A stretch of DNA of 7,465 nucleotides, taken from NCBI GenBank assembly GCA_016218905.1, contig JACRCS010000638.1, forward strand, positions 1 through 7,465. The letters are read 5' to 3'. Below the pieces are notes generated by a model. It was not told where the DNA came from, searched no databases, and worked only from the letters and a program-made list of their open reading frames with translations. This DNA comes from Deltaproteobacteria bacterium. GTDB lineage: Bacteria > Desulfobacterota_C > Deferrisomatia > Deferrisomatales > JACRMM01. Below, in pieces: positions 1 to 7,465 of the stretch (the first letter of the stretch is position 1; every line of letters begins with the position of its first letter). The translations under genes and the position numbers were made by a program.

Positions 1-858
1 GAAGGTCCCCGCCTCGGCGGAATAGAGACAGAAAGCCCCGACGACGGCTCCCTCCACCACGAGGGGAAGCGCGGCCCAGGAGAGGACGCCGCACCGGAGG
101 GCTGGCTCCCGCCAGGGCGCCGCCGCACCTTCCACGCGGACGTCGTTGCAGATCGACCGCGCGCCCGCCGCGATGGCTGCCCAGACGGGGCCGGGGTCCA
201 TCGCGTCGACGGCCGCGTTGCCGGATTGCCGGGAAAAGGCGAGGCCTGTGGAGCCCTCGTCGAGAAGCCCGATCCACGCTCCCTGAACGCCCCCGGTCTC
301 GACGGCCACGCGGCAGGCCTCGGCGAAGAGGGCCTCGAGGTCCCGCACCCGGACGATCGCCTGGTTGATGTCGGAGAGGAGGCGGTAGACCCTCGTCAGC
401 TGCCGGTTCCGGCGCTCGACCTGGCGCTTCTCCTGGAGAACCCGCCATTGCCGGCGGGCCCTCTCGACGGTCCGGGGCATTCCGGCGAAGGCTTCCGGGG
501 ACTTGACGACGTAGTCGATGGCACCCGCCTTCATCGCCTCGACCGCGACCTGCTCGTTCCCGAAGCTCGTCATCACCAGGACCGGGAAGGGGCCCTCTTC
601 GAGAGGAGACGAGAGGATCTCGATCGCCCGGCCGTCCGGCAGGTTGAGATCCACGAGGGCGAGGTCCGTCGAGCCGGCCTCCCTCGCCCTCCGGAAGTCC
701 GCCAGCGTCCGGCCCATGCTCAAGCTGGCGCCCGAACCGCACCCCTCGAAGGCGCGGCGGATCGCCTCGGCGTGCCCCTCGTCGTCCTCCACGATCAGGA
801 GCCGGAACGCGGCGCCATCCGGGATGGCTCGCTCGAAGGGTTCAGTAGGGCCGTTCAT
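1..858 (-). CDS. Receiver-GAF signalling protein (C-terminus outside window)
   Basis: I translated this frame by hand; it is open from the ATG at 858 to the left edge (286 codons, no stop), so the protein is truncated. Residues about 18-135 form a response-regulator receiver domain: acidic cluster E24-D25-D26, phospho-acceptor D70 in the stretch LVDLNLPDG, conserved T97 in VMTSFG and K119 in YVVKS. A charged helical linker (about 130-160) leads into a GAF-like sensor domain (about 160 to the edge), recognisable by LLSDINQAIV, AWIGLLDEG and the closing strands LPLVVEGAVVGAF. In known proteins this order is usually followed by a PAS/histidine kinase, GGDEF or other output domain, which cannot be seen here. 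The start overlaps the end of the upstream receiver gene by 17 nt, with only a weak GGA as ribosome site, suggesting translational coupling. It probably receives phosphate from the kinase encoded two genes upstream; this is inference. Confidence 0.88.
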   Translation of the reverse strand, partial: MNGPTEPFERAIPDGAAFRLLIVEDDEGHAEAIRRAFEGCGSGASLSMGRTLADFRRAREAGSTDLALVDLNLPDGRAIEILSSPLEEGPFPVLVMTSFGNEQVAVEAMKAGAIDYVVKSPEAFAGMPRTVERARRQWRVLQEKRQVERRNRQLTRVYRLLSDINQAIVRVRDLEALFAEACRVAVETGGVQGAWIGLLDEGSTGLAFSRQSGNAAVDAMDPGPVWAAIAAGARSICNDVRVEGAAAPWREPALRCGVLSWAALPLVVEGAVVGAFCLYSAEAGTF

Positions 859-1282
859 TCCATGCCAGCCAGTAGTAGCCGAGAGTCTCCAGGAGCGTCA
901 CGAACTGGGGGAAATCGACCGGCTTCACGAGGTAGCTGTTGGCGTGGAGGTCGTACGCCTTGACCATGTCGGCCTCTGCCGCCGACGTCGTCAAGATGAC
1001 GACGGGGATCGAGGAGAGCTCCGGACTCAGCTTGATCCTTCTCAGGACCTCCAGGCCGTCCACCTTCGGGAGCCGAAGGTCGAGCAGGACCAGACCCGGC
1101 CTCGGAGACGTCTCCAAATCTCCAAACTCCGCCCTGTGATGGAGGAAGTCCAGCGCCGACTGGCCGTCCCCCACCTGGTAGAGCCTGTTGGCGATCCTCG
1201 ACTTCTCGAAGTTCCGTCGGACTATCTCGGCGTGCGCCGGATCGTCCTCTACGAGCAGGATGATGACGGGGCTTCCTTTCAC
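842..1282 (-). CDS. Rcp1-like single-domain response regulator
   Basis: This 146-residue protein is a stand-alone CheY-like receiver with no output domain. The acidic pocket is E12-D13-D14, the phospho-acceptor is D68 in LLDLRLPKVDG, the switch Thr is in the LTTS motif (98-100) and the conserved Lys is K120 in LVKPVD. The long segment between the first acidic cluster and D68 (LDFLHHR region), the LTTS motif and the hydrophobic C-terminal helix are typical of the Rcp1 family, receivers paired with phytochrome-like or PAS histidine kinases of the VSHDLKSP type. The start is GTG at 1282, sharing GTGA with the kinase stop (4-nt overlap), which argues for co-translation. It most likely accepts phosphate from the adjacent kinase and passes the signal by protein contact, perhaps to the downstream receiver-GAF protein. 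Family assignment is strong; partners are inferred from gene order. Confidence 0.94.
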   Translation of the reverse strand: MKGSPVIILLVEDDPAHAEIVRRNFEKSRIANRLYQVGDGQSALDFLHHRAEFGDLETSPRPGLVLLDLRLPKVDGLEVLRRIKLSPELSSIPVVILTTSAAEADMVKAYDLHANSYLVKPVDFPQFVTLLETLGYYWLAWNERPY

Positions 1283-3510
1283 GTTCGCTCTCCCTTCCTA
1301 CGGTCGCGGATCGCGTCGGGAAGCGTGAAGAGGACCGCCGTGCCCTTCAGCGCTCCTTCCGATTCCAGCCAGATGCGCCCGCCGTAGAGCTCGACGACAC
1401 GCTTCACGAGGGCGAGGCCCAGCCCCGTCCCCTCGGTTCCCGGATCCAGCTTCTCGAAGAGGCCCAGGACCTTCTCCTGAAAACGCGGGTCGATGCCGAT
1501 ACCGTTGTCCCTGACGAAAAAGACCGTCTCCCGGCCCCTCCCGTTCTCGCCGAACTCGACGCGGGGCGCCTTCTGATCACCCATGAACTTGACGGCATTC
1601 TCGAGCAGGTTCTGCCAGATCTGGCCGAGGCGAAGACGATCGCCGAAGAAGACGACATCGCCCGGCCCCGCTTCGATCTCCACTCCCCGTTCTTCGATCC
1701 GGCCGGCCACCACTTCGGTCGCCTCCGAAATCAGCTCGCCGACCGTCACCTCCGTTGGCGAGTGGACGACGCGTCCGACCCGGGACAGCTCGAGCAGGTC
1801 TTCCAGGAGCCTCCCCATCTTGTCCGTGGCCGCCCGGAGGAAGAAATGGTCCTTCTCGATGCGGGTGGCGTCCTGCGTCTTCAGGTCCTCTTCCAGGTAA
1901 CCGAGGAAGGTCTTGACCGTGACGAGAGGGCTCTTCAAGTCGTGAGAGACGAGATAGGTGAACCGCTCCATCTCGGCGTTCTTCGCCTTCAGCTCGTCTT
2001 CCTGTCTCTTCTGGGTGGTGATGTCCTCGAAGACCGTGGCGAACTGCCCCGGCTTCTGACGAACGGCCGAGATCCTGAAGTGCCGCTTCAGCGGCGGGAA
2101 GTAGGTCTCGAACGACGACGGCTTCCCCGTCCGGACGACCTGGTCGTATTCGGCGAGGTATGGCGGCGCTCCCGTTCCATAGAGCTCAGTCGCAAGTGCC
2201 AAGCGCGCCTTCTCGGGCACGACGCCTGTGAGCCATTCATAGGCTGGATTGACGTCCAGTATTCTGTAGTCGACGACCTCCCCGTCTTCACCGTAGATCA
2301 TCTCGTGGAGAGCGACGCCTTCGGCCATGCTCTCGAACAGGACCCGGTATTTCGCCTCGCTCTCGCGGAGAGCCTCTGCCACCCGCCTTCGTTCCTCCTC
2401 TCCCTCCCAAAGGGCTTTCGCCGCCTTCAGCTGCTCCTCGTAGAACCGGCTGCGCTGCTGACGCCAGACGGCGCCGACGCCGGCCCCCGATGCCAGGAAC
2501 AGGGCGACGGCGAGAAAGGCCACCAGCCAGAGCCTCTCCCGAACCGGCGACAGCGCTTCTTTGACGTCCACCTTGGCCACCAGGCTCCAGGGAGAGCCGG
2601 GAACAGGGCGGATGGCCGCGTAGACGGGGACGCCCCGATAGTCGGTCCCTTCCATGACACCGGCCTTGCCGAGAGCGGCCTGGACGGCCGGGACCTCTGT
2701 CGCGGTGAGGGGTATCCGGAGAGAGAGGGCGGTCCCTTTTCGAAACCGCAGCTCGTTCAGGAAGACCACCTCGCTGCGCTCCCGGCGAACGAGAAGCGTC
2801 TCGGCCGTTCGACTCCGCGTGGGCCAACGCTGAAGGAACGGGTCGAGGTAACGTCTCGGGTCGATCTTCAGGACGACCACGCCGATCGCTGGCCCGCGAC
2901 CCGACGGATCTGAGATGGGGGCCAAGACAGCGAGAAGAATTCCCTGGTCCCTCCCGTGCCTGTAGAAGTCGACCATCGTCGCCCGGGACAAAGCCAGAGC
3001 TTCTGGAAACCGCCGGGTCACTGTTGCCGAGAGAGGGCCCTCGGCGGACGACGCGGCCAAGAGGATTCTCGCCTGTGGGTCCGCCAGGAAGACGTTCTCG
3101 TAGTCGTACAGCTTCTTGAGCTTCTCCAGCCACGGCAGCAGCACTTTCCTTGCCGCCGAGTGGTCTCCGGGCCCCAGGAAGGTAGCCACCTGCTCGGAAA
3201 AGGCGGCATTCCCGACCAGGAGATCGCCGTCCCCCAGGCGCTCCTTTCGAAACTGCTCCAGCTCGAAGACCTTCAGCTCGGCGACGGCCGAGAGCTGCCG
3301 CTCCACCTCGGTCCGGAACCGCGCCTCGTAGCTCCGGTAGTAAAGAACGGTCGCGGTTAGGATTCCAAGGGCGAGCGCCAGGAAGACGCCGACGAGTAGC
3401 CCCATGTCCCGTGACGGGGGCACCACCTGCCCCGGCTCTCTCGGAGCGGGATCTTCTCTCGGCGCCGAAAGGCGGCCGGGGCTGCCCGGTCCCTCCTGCT
3501 CATCTGACAT
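1279..3510 (-). CDS. Membrane sensor histidine kinase (Cache-like, PAS, HisKA, HATPase_c)
   Basis: This 743-residue kinase autophosphorylates on His and should donate phosphate to the next gene's receiver. I chose the ATG at 3510 because GGGAGG lies 8 nt upstream; the frame continues 46 codons further to 3648, but that extension looks non-coding. A proline-rich cytoplasmic tail (1-35) precedes TM1 (36-57). Residues about 60-325 form a periplasmic Cache-type sensor, with the typical end YRGVPVYAAIRPVPG then WSLVAKVD. TM2 is about 326-348. There is no clear HAMP; a charged helix (350-383) leads to a PAS domain (about 384-500, with SMAEGVALHEMIY and DVNPAYEWLTG). The HisKA box is VSHDLKSP with H523. 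The ATPase has the N box around N634/N638, G1 box DNGIGI (668-673) and G2 box GTGLGLAL (694-701). All catalytic motifs are intact. The ligand is unknown; Cache sensors usually bind small metabolites. Confidence 0.95.
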   Translation of the reverse strand: MSDEQEGPGSPGRLSAPREDPAPREPGQVVPPSRDMGLLVGVFLALALGILTATVLYYRSYEARFRTEVERQLSAVAELKVFELEQFRKERLGDGDLLVGNAAFSEQVATFLGPGDHSAARKVLLPWLEKLKKLYDYENVFLADPQARILLAASSAEGPLSATVTRRFPEALALSRATMVDFYRHGRDQGILLAVLAPISDPSGRGPAIGVVVLKIDPRRYLDPFLQRWPTRSRTAETLLVRRERSEVVFLNELRFRKGTALSLRIPLTATEVPAVQAALGKAGVMEGTDYRGVPVYAAIRPVPGSPWSLVAKVDVKEALSPVRERLWLVAFLAVALFLASGAGVGAVWRQQRSRFYEEQLKAAKALWEGEEERRRVAEALRESEAKYRVLFESMAEGVALHEMIYGEDGEVVDYRILDVNPAYEWLTGVVPEKARLALATELYGTGAPPYLAEYDQVVRTGKPSSFETYFPPLKRHFRISAVRQKPGQFATVFEDITTQKRQEDELKAKNAEMERFTYLVSHDLKSPLVTVKTFLGYLEEDLKTQDATRIEKDHFFLRAATDKMGRLLEDLLELSRVGRVVHSPTEVTVGELISEATEVVAGRIEERGVEIEAGPGDVVFFGDRLRLGQIWQNLLENAVKFMGDQKAPRVEFGENGRGRETVFFVRDNGIGIDPRFQEKVLGLFEKLDPGTEGTGLGLALVKRVVELYGGRIWLESEGALKGTAVLFTLPDAIRDRRKGERT

Positions 3511-3518
3511 CCAGGATA

Positions 3519-3524
3519 CCTCCC
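3519..3524 (-). promoter_or_regulatory. Shine-Dalgarno site of the histidine kinase
   Basis: On the minus strand GGGAGG is followed by 8 nt and then ATG at 3510. This near-ideal site decides the start in favour of 3510 over the longer open frame beginning at 3648, which has no comparable site. Confidence 0.8.
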
Positions 3525-3703
3525 GGATGGAGCGCTTTCTTCCGACCGTCGAAGCTGAACCCCGCGCTGCCAGGCATCTCGCGAAGGCCGATTGGCCGGG
3601 ACCGCATAGGGGGTGACTCCGCGGATGGCTCAGTCTATACCCCGGCACACCTCCGGCTCTGCCTCACTACGATCTCTCCGATGGGCGAAATCGGCCCGAC
3701 CGG

Positions 3704-3951: not shown

Positions 3952-4221
3952 ATGAAGCAACGGTTCACAAGGCTCGGCGGGCCTTTCCTCCTCGTCCTGC
4001 TACGGGCTTCGCAGCTTGGGGCCCAGGTCGGGAAGCGCGAAGCCGCCGGGATCACCCCTTCCGGTGCGTCCCACCAGCGCCCACGGCGAGTACGGCGCCC
4101 ACCTGTTGGCCGACGGAGGCGCCTCTTCTTCACTCGCCGCGCTCCGCAAGGGAATCCCATCCACTGGGTCGCCACCTCGGCGATCGATCGGCTCAAACCG
4201 TCGTGCGGGTCTGGCCGATAG
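3952..4221 (+). pseudogene. Probable decayed gene for a small secreted protein
   Basis: The frame from ATG 3952 to TAG 4221 gives 89 residues. The start is signal-peptide-like: basic MKQRFTR, a hydrophobic run GGPFLLVLL, then ASQLGAQ as a possible cleavage region. An Arg breaks the hydrophobic core, which is unusual. After about residue 36 the frame becomes Arg-rich and loses G/C at third positions. From about 4061 to 4122 the strong wobble bias sits in the next frame, which reads SAHGEYGAHLLADGG. From about 4123 it returns to the first frame (LFFTRRAPQGNPIHWV). This suggests two compensating small indels. The patched reading loosely resembles secreted proteins with the Yx(F/W/Y)xxD repeat (PF03640, COG4315), which is a guess from memory of the pattern. 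The stop lies 19 nt before the oxidoreductase start, so the two could share a transcript. It could instead be a real but unfamiliar basic peptide, or chance. Confidence 0.35.
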
Positions 4222-4227
4222 TTTTGC

Positions 4228-4235
4228 AAAGGAGG
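4228..4235 (+). promoter_or_regulatory. Shine-Dalgarno site of the membrane oxidoreductase
   Basis: AAAGGAGG ends 5 nt before the ATG at 4241. The frame is open further upstream (a TTG at 4016 is possible), and another ATG lies at 4250 (14 nt from the site). The strong site selects 4241. Confidence 0.8.
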
Positions 4236-4240
4236 CGTTC

Positions 4241-6229
4241 ATGCCGTCGATGAAGTCGATCCTTCTCCTCGCGCCACTCGTCCTGTGGCTCGCCCAGTTG
4301 CTGCTGAGAACGCTCCTTGGGCGGGCGCCCCGGCGAGCTGACATCACGGTCGGACTCAGCCTGGTCACGTTGCTGTATTTCCTGGCCGTGGTGGGAACGG
4401 GGGTCTTCTGGGTGGCGAAGCAGGAGCTGCCGGCGTTCGACTGGCACTATCTGCCCGGCTACGTCCTGCTTGCCCTGACACTGACCCACGTGGTGTTGCA
4501 CTGGCGAAGCATCGATGCCTACTTGAAGCGCCGGGCGCCGGAGCGGCTGGTCGCCGAGGACCGGGCGCAGTTCGTCAGCTGGGTGAGATGGACCGGCTAT
4601 GGCGGAACGGGAGTCCTGTGTGTCGGGCTCCTCTTCTCGTTGGGCATGAGACAAGGCTCGAGGACGATGACCGTCGTCGCAACCGACGAGGCGCACAGGC
4701 CGACGACCGAGTGGGGCCAGGGCGGCCAGATTCCGGTGCGTCGTGTGGAGGTGGAGGGCGCCTCGCTGCCACTCGCCCAGTGGTACCACCAGGGCAGCTC
4801 GTATCCGGCAAGTATTGGCCTTCCCGGCCTGACCATCGCGACCCGGCCAGAGGTCTACAACACCTTTACCGGCGCGACCGTCAGCCTCCCTGACCAGAGG
4901 CCGACGGACGGACCGGGAGTGGTGGCGGCCTACGATGCCTGGCGCACCGGCCGTCCGCTGCCGGCCCAGAGTCCCATGGATCTGGACCAGCTCAGCACGA
5001 TTCTCTTCCACACCCAGGGGGTCACCGGCACACTGACGGGTCGCACCCGCACCATCGAGCTCCGTGCCGCCCCGAGCGCCGACGCCGTCTACCCGGTCAA
5101 CGTCTACGTGGTCGCCATCGACGTCCGTGGCCTGGCGCAGGGGCTCTACTACTACAACCCCAAGTTTTCCGCGCTGGTCCTCCTGCAGGCCGACTTCAAC
5201 CCGGACAAGGTAGCCGTCACATCGGGAGGACGTGGCTACTTCGAGAACGCCCCGGCCGTTGTCGTGCTCACCGCGACCTTCGCCCGAGCGGCCTACAAGA
5301 ACGACGAGCGCGCCTACAGGTACGTGGCCATAGACACCGGTCACGCCGCCTACAACCTAGCCCTGTCCGCCGCCTCGCTAGGCTGGCAATCGCCCATGCT
5401 GGGACGCTTCGACGACCAGGCTCTCCAGGTCGCGCTCGGCCTGGAGGTGACCGACGAGGCGCCCATCCTGGTCATGCCCCTCACCAGGGAGGCGCGCGAC
5501 ATTCCCGAGCCGCTCTTCAAACCGGCAGACCCGACCACTGGCAAGCGCACCTACGTCGAACTCATCCACGGCGGTACCGCCCTGAGGCTCGCCGGGGGGC
5601 AGGCGCCCCTTGCCCGCCACCCGGCGGGCCGCCTGCCGGCCGAGCCGGGCGACGTTCCTCTGCCTCCGCCCGCGGCGGGGCAGGCGCTCTTTGAGAGCAT
5701 CCGGGCGAGACGATCGGTGCGCAAATACGTGCCGGGACCCTTGACGCTCGAGGAGCTCTCCGCTCTCTGCGCCGCTTCGGCCGGCATGTCGGGGACCACC
5801 ACAGACCCCCTTCTGGCCGATACGGCCCCGCTGAATCTGTACCCGATCGTCAGAGACGTGAAGGGCCTCGCTCCCGGCGTGTATCGCTACCTTCCGGGCC
5901 CGCACGCGCTGCGTCTGCTCCGGGCGGGGGATCTCTCCCGCAGCTGCGAGGCCGCGAGCATGCACCAGGAGTTCTGCGGCACGGCCAACGTGTTGTTCGT
6001 GAAGACCGTCACATGGAAGGACCTGTTCCTGCCGGATGGCGACCGTGGATACCGCTACGCCAACCTTCGAGCAGGGCTCGTGGGTGAGGCCCTTTACCTC
6101 CAGGGCACTGCCCTGCGCCTCGGTGTCTGTGGAGTTGGGGCCTTCCAGGACCGAGACGTGGCTGCCCTGCTAGGCCTGGAACTCCAGGAGGAAGCGCCGC
6201 TCTATCTCACCGCCGTGGGCCGACGATGA
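4241..6229 (+). CDS. Membrane-anchored tandem SagB/ThcOx-type nitroreductase-fold oxidoreductase
   Basis: This 662-residue protein appears to be a flavin oxidoreductase fused to a membrane electron-carrier-like domain. Helices lie at about 5-25, 35-58, 70-88 and 117-136. H69, H83 and H87 in WHYLPGY and THVVLHW resemble haem-b ligands of DUF4405/cytochrome b561-like domains. Basic loops 23-33 and 89-102 suggest a cytoplasmic side there, placing the C-terminal part in the periplasm. A YHQGSSYP element (182-189) matches the YHxxS/T entry motif of SagB-like proteins. Module 1 (about 175-420) has RAAPSADAVYP (275-285), GLYYYNP and a GHAAYNLALSAASLG helix. Module 2 (about 480-662) has RRSVRKY (490-496), GVYRYLPG, CGVGAF (630-635) and C-terminal GRR. 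RRSxR is degenerate in module 1 (GRP at 237-239); the RxxPSxxxxYP motif is degenerate in module 2. Typical SagB proteins have one module. The substrate is unknown. No TOMM partner is visible, so I would not call it sagB. Confidence 0.85.
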   Translation: MPSMKSILLLAPLVLWLAQLLLRTLLGRAPRRADITVGLSLVTLLYFLAVVGTGVFWVAKQELPAFDWHYLPGYVLLALTLTHVVLHWRSIDAYLKRRAPERLVAEDRAQFVSWVRWTGYGGTGVLCVGLLFSLGMRQGSRTMTVVATDEAHRPTTEWGQGGQIPVRRVEVEGASLPLAQWYHQGSSYPASIGLPGLTIATRPEVYNTFTGATVSLPDQRPTDGPGVVAAYDAWRTGRPLPAQSPMDLDQLSTILFHTQGVTGTLTGRTRTIELRAAPSADAVYPVNVYVVAIDVRGLAQGLYYYNPKFSALVLLQADFNPDKVAVTSGGRGYFENAPAVVVLTATFARAAYKNDERAYRYVAIDTGHAAYNLALSAASLGWQSPMLGRFDDQALQVALGLEVTDEAPILVMPLTREARDIPEPLFKPADPTTGKRTYVELIHGGTALRLAGGQAPLARHPAGRLPAEPGDVPLPPPAAGQALFESIRARRSVRKYVPGPLTLEELSALCAASAGMSGTTTDPLLADTAPLNLYPIVRDVKGLAPGVYRYLPGPHALRLLRAGDLSRSCEAASMHQEFCGTANVLFVKTVTWKDLFLPDGDRGYRYANLRAGLVGEALYLQGTALRLGVCGVGAFQDRDVAALLGLELQEEAPLYLTAVGRR

Positions 6230-6348: not shown

Positions 6349-6361
6349 TCTACACCTTAAG

Positions 6362-7465
6362 ATGGCGGAGTCCAGCAGGCTCAAAATGAATCTCCAGGTA
6401 CGGCCATCCCGGGCGAGCCAGGCGCAATTCCTCCTCTCCTGGGACCGCTTAGGCTTTCGCCTCCTGTTCTTCGGGGGACTGGCGCTCCTGTGGATCCTCC
6501 AGGGAAGGATGTTGCACCTGCCATGGCCGGAGCTCATCCGGGGCGAGCTGGCGGGCATCATGCCCTGGGCCTTCCTCGCCCCGATCGTGCTCTCCTCGAG
6601 CAGGCGCGTCCGGATCGAGAAGCTGGGCTTGGGGCGCACCCTGGCCGCCCATTTGCTGAGCATGGCCCTGGTCTTCATCCCCTACTGGCTCATACAGCGA
6701 GGGATCCTTCTACTCTGGGCCTGCTTCGCGTCGGGCTGGGAGGTCTCCCGTCTCTCCTTGCTCGTTCCAACGACGGAGAACCTGATCGGCAGCTTCTGCA
6801 ACGTGCCTTTCGTCTACCTCTTGATCCTCCTCGGGGCCGAAGCCATGGAGCACGCTCAGGCCCGGCGGGAGGAGGAGCTGCTGGCCGCGCGCCTGGCCAG
6901 CCAGCTCGCCGAGGCCCGACTGGCTCTCCTCCAGCGGCAGATCCACCCGCACTTCCTCTTCAACGCCCTCCAGGCGATCTCGACGCTTCTTCACCGCGAT
7001 CCCGCGACCGCGGACGGTCTCCTCGTGCGCCTGTCTGCGCTGCTTCGGGCCATGCTCGAGAACGCCTCGGGGCAGACCCTGAGCCTGCGGTCGGAGCTCG
7101 AGCTGACCCGAAAGTACCTGGATATCGAGCAGGTCCGGTTTGGAGACCGTCTTCGCGTCGAGTGGAGCGTCGACGAGTCGGTGCTCGATTGCCAGGTGCC
7201 CAGCCTGGTCGTGCTTCCGCTGGTGGAGAACGCCATTCGCCACGGGCTTTCGACGAAGGTGGGTCCGGGTCGATTGACGATCTCCGCGCGGCCTGAAGGG
7301 GCGTCACTTCTCCTGACCGTTCAGGACGACGGGTTGGGAGCGACTTTTCCCCTCCAGGACGGGGTGGGGATCGCGAATACTCGTGAGCGCCTCGAGGCGA
7401 TGTATCGCGGGCGCGCGTCGCTCGAGGTCGACACCGTGCCGGACGCCGGCTTCCGCGCCCGGATC
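6362..7465 (+). CDS. LytS/YehU-type sensor histidine kinase (C-terminus outside window)
   Basis: I translated this frame by hand; it is open from ATG 6362 to the right edge (368 codons, no stop). Hydrophobic segments at about 32-48, 66-79, 95-119 and 140-159 suggest four membrane helices with no large periplasmic loop. A charged helix (160-190) leads to the His_kinase domain (PF06580) with QIHPHFLFNAL; H197 in PHFLFN is the expected phospho-acceptor. The ATPase has the N box LVENAIRHG (N290), G1 box DDGLG (322-326) and G2 GVGIANTRERL (334-344), all characteristic of this family. Only the last strand or so is missing. Such kinases normally pair with a LytTR-type response regulator, often the next gene, which would lie past the edge. 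Neither possible start has a good ribosome site; ATG 6386 has AGCAGG 6 nt upstream and is a fair alternative. The gene lies 132 nt after the oxidoreductase on the same strand; shared regulation is possible but unproven. Confidence 0.92.
   Translation, partial: MAESSRLKMNLQVRPSRASQAQFLLSWDRLGFRLLFFGGLALLWILQGRMLHLPWPELIRGELAGIMPWAFLAPIVLSSSRRVRIEKLGLGRTLAAHLLSMALVFIPYWLIQRGILLLWACFASGWEVSRLSLLVPTTENLIGSFCNVPFVYLLILLGAEAMEHAQARREEELLAARLASQLAEARLALLQRQIHPHFLFNALQAISTLLHRDPATADGLLVRLSALLRAMLENASGQTLSLRSELELTRKYLDIEQVRFGDRLRVEWSVDESVLDCQVPSLVVLPLVENAIRHGLSTKVGPGRLTISARPEGASLLLTVQDDGLGATFPLQDGVGIANTRERLEAMYRGRASLEVDTVPDAGFRARI

Follow-up and report, generated by a model that had tools for sequence, protein, structure and literature searches.

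A 7,465-nucleotide stretch of DNA from a Deltaproteobacteria bacterium (contig JACRCS010000638.1; hereafter the window) carries a gene at 4241-6229 on the plus strand whose 662-residue product is likely to be a membrane-anchored flavoprotein of the SagB/ThcOx type. We propose that two nitroreductase modules in this single chain share one composite site for flavin mononucleotide (FMN), that they lie on the outer face of the cytoplasmic membrane and, more tentatively, that the flavin is linked to heme. The reading frame begins at the ATG at 4241, which is preceded by AAAGGAGG. Two stretches of the protein match PF00881 (nitroreductase; Pfam), at 115.5 bits against a gathering score of 23.5, and TIGR03605 (SagB; NCBIfam), at 190.9 bits against a curated cut-off of 78.4; on these profile matches the product is a SagB/ThcOx-type tandem nitroreductase with two modules in one chain. 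The initial annotation had placed the element at 4763..6229, an interval that is too short, as it omits 174 residues on the N-terminal side, including four predicted membrane helices. The strings that it quoted are all found in the translated frame, and the two modules can indeed be aligned with each other: across 174 columns they are 29% identical, and BLASTP of this one pair gives E = 6e-19.

Both modules are predicted to have the nitroreductase fold, and each retains a different part of the flavin site; all coordinates given for this gene are on the plus strand. Module 1 (residues 234-413; 4940..5479) would supply the R..S motif and the side of the site that carries K353. It has lost the RRS motif, and the sequence W234-R-T-G-R-P confirms the earlier observation of GRP in that place. 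Its FMN-contact motif, RAAPSADAVYP, lies at residues 275-285 (5063..5095) and differs from the consensus SAGALYP by G281D and L283V; K353-N354 (5297..5302) occupies the place of the Lys-Tyr pair of the family, with Asn in place of Tyr; and D365 to H368 (5333..5344) holds the equivalents of D188 and H191 in the structure 3EO7. Module 2 (residues 482-661, with limits taken from structural alignments; 5684..6223) would supply RRS and the C-terminal end, and the motifs ascribed to it were located as RRSVR at 490-494 (5708..5722), where R490 is equivalent to R334 of 3EO7, and as the C-terminal GRR at 660-662. It has lost the R..S motif, the Lys and the His of the flavin site; the eroded counterpart of the R..PS motif falls, by alignment of the modules, at residues 520-530 (5798..5830), and the ADTAPLNLYP noted there earlier reads from 526 to 535.

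The reference structure, 3EO7 (Ava_2154 of Anabaena variabilis, 2008; a plant relative is At1g02020), is likewise a single chain of two nitroreductase modules, with RAAPSAGGLYP in module 1 and RRSTRAY in module 2. Its FMN residues as published (PMC7538488) are divided between the two modules: R98, P101, S102, D188, H191 and R334. We took the numbering of that paper to be that of 3EO7, since the chain has the expected letter at each of the six positions. Both modules of the window protein superpose on 3EO7, with FMN residues coming from both, and all six FMN-contact equivalents are retained. The composite site predicted from this comparison is formed by R275, P278, S279, K353, D365 and H368 of module 1 facing R490, R491, S492, R494 and the C-terminal end of module 2. 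Residues of the two modules would thus jointly form a single pocket, and we infer one FMN per chain.

A search for relatives gave 105 proteins, including that of the window, of which the 102 longer than 430 residues were aligned; alignment A2 holds 74 of the 105. Module counts refer to 98 tandems, window included, after exclusion of P0023, P0061, P0104 and P0105 as partial or poorly placed. A genome scan with the patterns FWVAxQ[ED]LP, FDWHYLxGY and KYx[ED]R[ASC]YRYV retained 79 loci, and 26 single-module relatives were taken from genomes; the patterns select in part for Lys-Tyr in the single-module set, and do not select for RRS or PS. Four residues were tracked, the Arg and Ser of RRS and the Arg and Ser/Thr of the R..S motif, and all four are present in one chain in 26/26 single-module relatives. 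The composite set, consisting of RRS from module 2 and R..S from module 1, is complete in 98/98 tandems. The mirror set is complete in 0/98, with none of its residues left in 59 tandems, one in 37, two in one and three in one. The same motifs are therefore lost from the same modules throughout, and the complementary losses that the initial annotation had read as leaving one working and one dead site are a conserved pattern. These counts support its reading of an asymmetric single-chain pseudodimer, an arrangement already described for relatives, in which one composite FMN site is predicted to be left while the mirror site is without its key residues. An ordinary tandem duplication in which both sites work would fit the common fold of the modules; it is contradicted at the sequence level by the second-site residues, which are never complete, and we consider it very improbable.

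The split extends beyond the tracked residues. Among columns that 90% or more of the single-module relatives conserve (numbered as in L053, with counts per 98), R65 is found in 98 module 2 and 2 module 1 copies, S67 in 98 and 17, and Q157 in 95 and 0; G209 (85 and 5), A215 (69 and 0), Y236 (68 and 0) and C211 (58 and 0) are less fully retained in module 2. Conversely, R101 is found in 98 module 1 and 21 module 2 copies, S105 in 97 and 2, G107 in 96 and 2, L109 in 95 and 6, K179 in 95 and 0, and Y180 in 94 and 10, with Y110 (80 and 0), H194 (74 and 0) and H130 (51 and 1) following the same direction less fully. G127, Y129, R183, R186, G193 and D218 are conserved in both modules, and G229 is gone from both. 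Some columns weigh against so tidy a division: P104 is kept in more module 2 than module 1 copies (85/98 versus 62/98), the second Arg of RRS (R66) persists in 34/98 module 1 copies, and C211, A215 and Y236, all lost from module 1, are present in just 58, 69 and 68 of the 98 module 2 copies. The inter-module alignment is based on sequence and is less sure near the eroded motif of module 2, though BLASTP finds an identical register there. A tree of 100 rows was built with 37 tandems out of the 98 and with every one of the 26 single-module rows. In it, module 1 forms one clan (100/99) and module 2 another (100/100), and both are found in all 200 bootstrap trees, as predicted by one duplication followed by complementary loss. 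Longer tandem relatives carrying extra sequence were also seen (P0013; P0019, 845 residues; and L015, in a frame of 1024 residues).

The surviving site of the window protein departs from that of its family. Along with its nearest relative, P0002, to which it is 86-87% identical, the window protein reads SADAVYP where the family has SAGALYP, and G281D, L283V and Y354N are common to both. Asp at 281 occurs in these 2/98 tandems only, and position 354 is Tyr in 94, Asn in the same two and Phe in another two (P0054 and P0055); the Lys-Tyr pair is present in module 1 of 91/98 tandems. As the two proteins share the changes at this level of identity, sequencing error is unlikely. The altered site may serve another substrate or a sensory role, and a stronger form of this idea is that the three substitutions have changed its job altogether, to that of a flavin-binding sensor or of an enzyme acting on another substrate. 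The confinement of Asp281 and Asn354 to this pair, which also share V283, and the LytS-type kinase gene downstream on the same strand speak for such a change; against it stand the six retained FMN-contact equivalents and the lack of any neighbour family that recurs widely among the relatives. On balance we think it unlikely.

The same position bears on the function implied by the SagB name, that of an azoline dehydrogenase in a thiazole/oxazole peptide pathway. In azoline dehydrogenases the Lys-Tyr pair is catalytic, and the window protein, with K353-N354, lacks its Tyr. The SagB profile score lies far above its cut-off, and YcaO was found in the genomes of 12 of 35 relatives, both of which favour this function. 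However, YcaO was not found in the other 23 of the 35, including all of the first 13, which belong to the closest relatives (many of the genomes are metagenome bins of unstated completeness), and beyond the flavin gene no reading-frame family is present in more than 8 of the 79 loci, where the neighbours were not checked for YcaO specifically. The flavin modules are, moreover, predicted to be extracytoplasmic. Because no neighbour family recurs widely and YcaO was not found in most of the 35 genomes, a thiazole peptide pathway is unlikely, and azoline dehydrogenase activity of the window protein itself appears improbable.

Residues 1-140 form four predicted helices, both in the full-length AlphaFold2 model and in a separate model of this domain; the predicted local distance difference test score (pLDDT) of the full model drops to 57-64 over residues 51-70. 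The predicted membrane helices span residues 4-25 (4250..4315; hydropathy peak 2.06), 32-60 (4334..4420; 2.16), 68-88 (4442..4504; 1.26) and 113-139 (4577..4657; 1.31), the last preceded by a loop rich in Lys and Arg. To compare this domain we used 53 membrane-form homologues found by a search with residues 150-662 only, 50 of which are in alignment A1. Helix 2 has Y46, G54, F56 and W57 invariant in 53/53. Lys/Arg density is higher in loops 1-2 and 3-4 than in the other loops in 53/53 (means 0.239 versus 0.106, or 0.109 for the other loops when the 40 residues after helix 4 are included), a charge distribution that puts the flavin modules on the non-cytoplasmic side. We conclude that they are probably on the outer face of the cytoplasmic membrane, where the four predicted helices would hold them and substrate would be reached from outside. 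Two points count against the overall proposal: in the window protein, helices 3 and 4 have low peaks, and a twin-arginine translocation (Tat)-like motif is present in 0/53 tandem membrane forms. Across the family a hydropathy of 1.6 is attained by helix 3 in 20/53 members and by helix 4 in 42/53. Attachment of flavin by ApbE was also considered and rejected: the attachment motif is a conserved [ST]GAT, and FTGAT at residues 209-213 is not conserved, the 87% identical relative having YAGAT.

Helix 3 carries two invariant His residues, H69 and H83, which are 14 apart in 53/53 homologues; H87 is His in 41/53. A third alignment, A3, consists of the window and 26 loci picked by a pattern that includes H69, and its H69 count is not independent. 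A His pair 14 residues apart is a spacing known from b-type cytochromes, and it also occurs in the cytochrome-like sequences that we compared by profile. We tentatively propose, as a prospect somewhat short of even, that in a homodimer H69 and H83 serve as ligands of b hemes, through which electrons would travel between the flavin and either the quinone pool or the cytoplasm; in the more specific form of this proposal, dimerisation through helix 3 would hold two b hemes that connect the flavin with quinones. Homodimerisation would be needed here, and it has likewise been proposed to build the heme sites of FezC, which, like DUF4405, was shown to bind heme b (PMC11334425). The likeness to the DUF4405, FezC and MsrQ cytochromes lies in membrane helices with His residues, which are heme b ligands in those proteins.

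Several results weigh against a cytochrome. The N-terminal domain scores 12.1 bits for DUF4405 against the Pfam gathering score of 26.7, and it reaches no other Pfam cut-off either, those of cytochrome families included. Among the 27 members scanned, the lowest single E-values are for the non-cytochrome families Frag1 (6e-05; 7 members) and DUF4079 (0.00021; 8 members), and a fold search of the PDB with the N-terminal model matched no cytochrome. Direct profile matches to DUF4405 are weak, with probabilities of 3 to 10 for the tandem N-terminus and of 59 to 76 for that of single-module relatives. The restriction of the conserved His residues to a single helix points the same way. These observations suit an alternative in which the N-terminus is a mere anchor, its His residues serving quinone or metal binding or packing, and the flavin is fed by a soluble donor. 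Against such an anchor stand the His pair, invariant in all 53 tandems and recurrent in the single-module membrane relatives, and the finding that DUF4405 (16/27 members) and cytochrome b561 (13/27) are the most frequent families below cut-off; we regard it as a serious possibility, held with less than even confidence. Membership of DUF4405, which was sought in 20 genomes, was rejected on the bit score and on the presence of two invariant His and four helices instead of four His and six helices. DUF4405 has six helices with four central His; the window protein has its two His on one of four predicted helices, which precede a nitroreductase pair in the same chain.

Seven of the 26 single-module proteins were counted as membrane forms (L043, L044, L049, L059, L061, L062 and L065). 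These proteins, from Chloroflexota and Leptolyngbya, have hydrophobic N-terminal stretches with two His 14 apart in 7/7, and a Ser/Gly-Arg-Arg Tat-like motif lies ahead of the last helix in 6/7; another single-module protein, L063, has one hydrophobic stretch and is without the His pair. The N-terminal profiles of tandem and single-module forms match each other with a probability of 95 (E 1.9e-8), compared with E-values of 0.28 for a reversed profile and 6.1e-6 for the best of 100 local shuffles, whose probability of 85 counts against the match. A possible history, to which we give rather less than even odds, is that of a heme-linked extracytoplasmic SagB-type family in which a cytochrome-like helix was joined to a single flavin module, as in the Chloroflexota and Leptolyngbya forms, and a later duplication gave rise to tandems that gave up one flavin site. 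If this is true, the tandem chain would dimerise for its hemes only, not for flavin, and electrons would be exchanged across the membrane.

Elsewhere in the window, a LytS-type sensor kinase (6359-7465, plus strand; PF06580, 83.8 bits) lies downstream of the flavin gene and runs off the window. Two-component genes occupy 1-3648 on the minus strand, encoding a response regulator with a GAF domain, a single-domain response regulator and a PAS/HisKA histidine kinase, the last with a weak dCache match. Immediately upstream of the flavin gene, 3952-4240 (plus strand) has a signal-peptide-like start (MKQRFTRLGGPFLLVLLRASQLGAQ) and then, as read by eye, changes character; this stretch is possibly a decayed or frameshifted small gene.

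The one-site pseudodimer architecture is not new, being known from 3EO7 since 2008 and from the Acg family, whose members are described as products of duplication and fusion with a single site (PMC8605562, PMC10404671); a 2018 paper likewise notes that duplication and fusion have made a few superfamily members twice as long (PMC6017928). The window protein and 3EO7 are 26-28% identical, and 3EO7 has Arg-Tyr at the position that holds Lys-Tyr in the family and Lys-Asn in the window protein. As its alignment with the window protein starts from residue 5 of a chain of 511 residues, 3EO7 is without the membrane domain. Acg/MsAcg (PDB 2YMV), placed in a flavin-dependent oxidase subgroup with TyzC, was not among the 16 sequence matches at E up to 1; it has a lid over the flavin, and the portion of its description available mentions no membrane domain. 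ThcOx/CyaGox (5LQ4, 8PZ5) and McbC have the SagB-type flavin domain in common with the window protein. ThcOx, for which a dimer is inferred with one FMN per molecule, has no second flavin module but N-terminal peptide-clamp domains instead (PMC5108345). The membrane-bound, possibly heme-linked tandem form looks new: no description of a membrane-form SagB/nitroreductase enzyme was found among the matches listed in searches of openly licensed papers (15 of 34,261 in one case), and a further search gave no matches, which is a weak negative. Taken together, the family offers a clean case of a divided site, with single-module relatives that carry both motifs in each chain and tandems that split the site between copies. 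If the proposals for the membrane form are true, a SagB/nitroreductase enzyme would sit on the outer side of the membrane and carry its own electron conduit.
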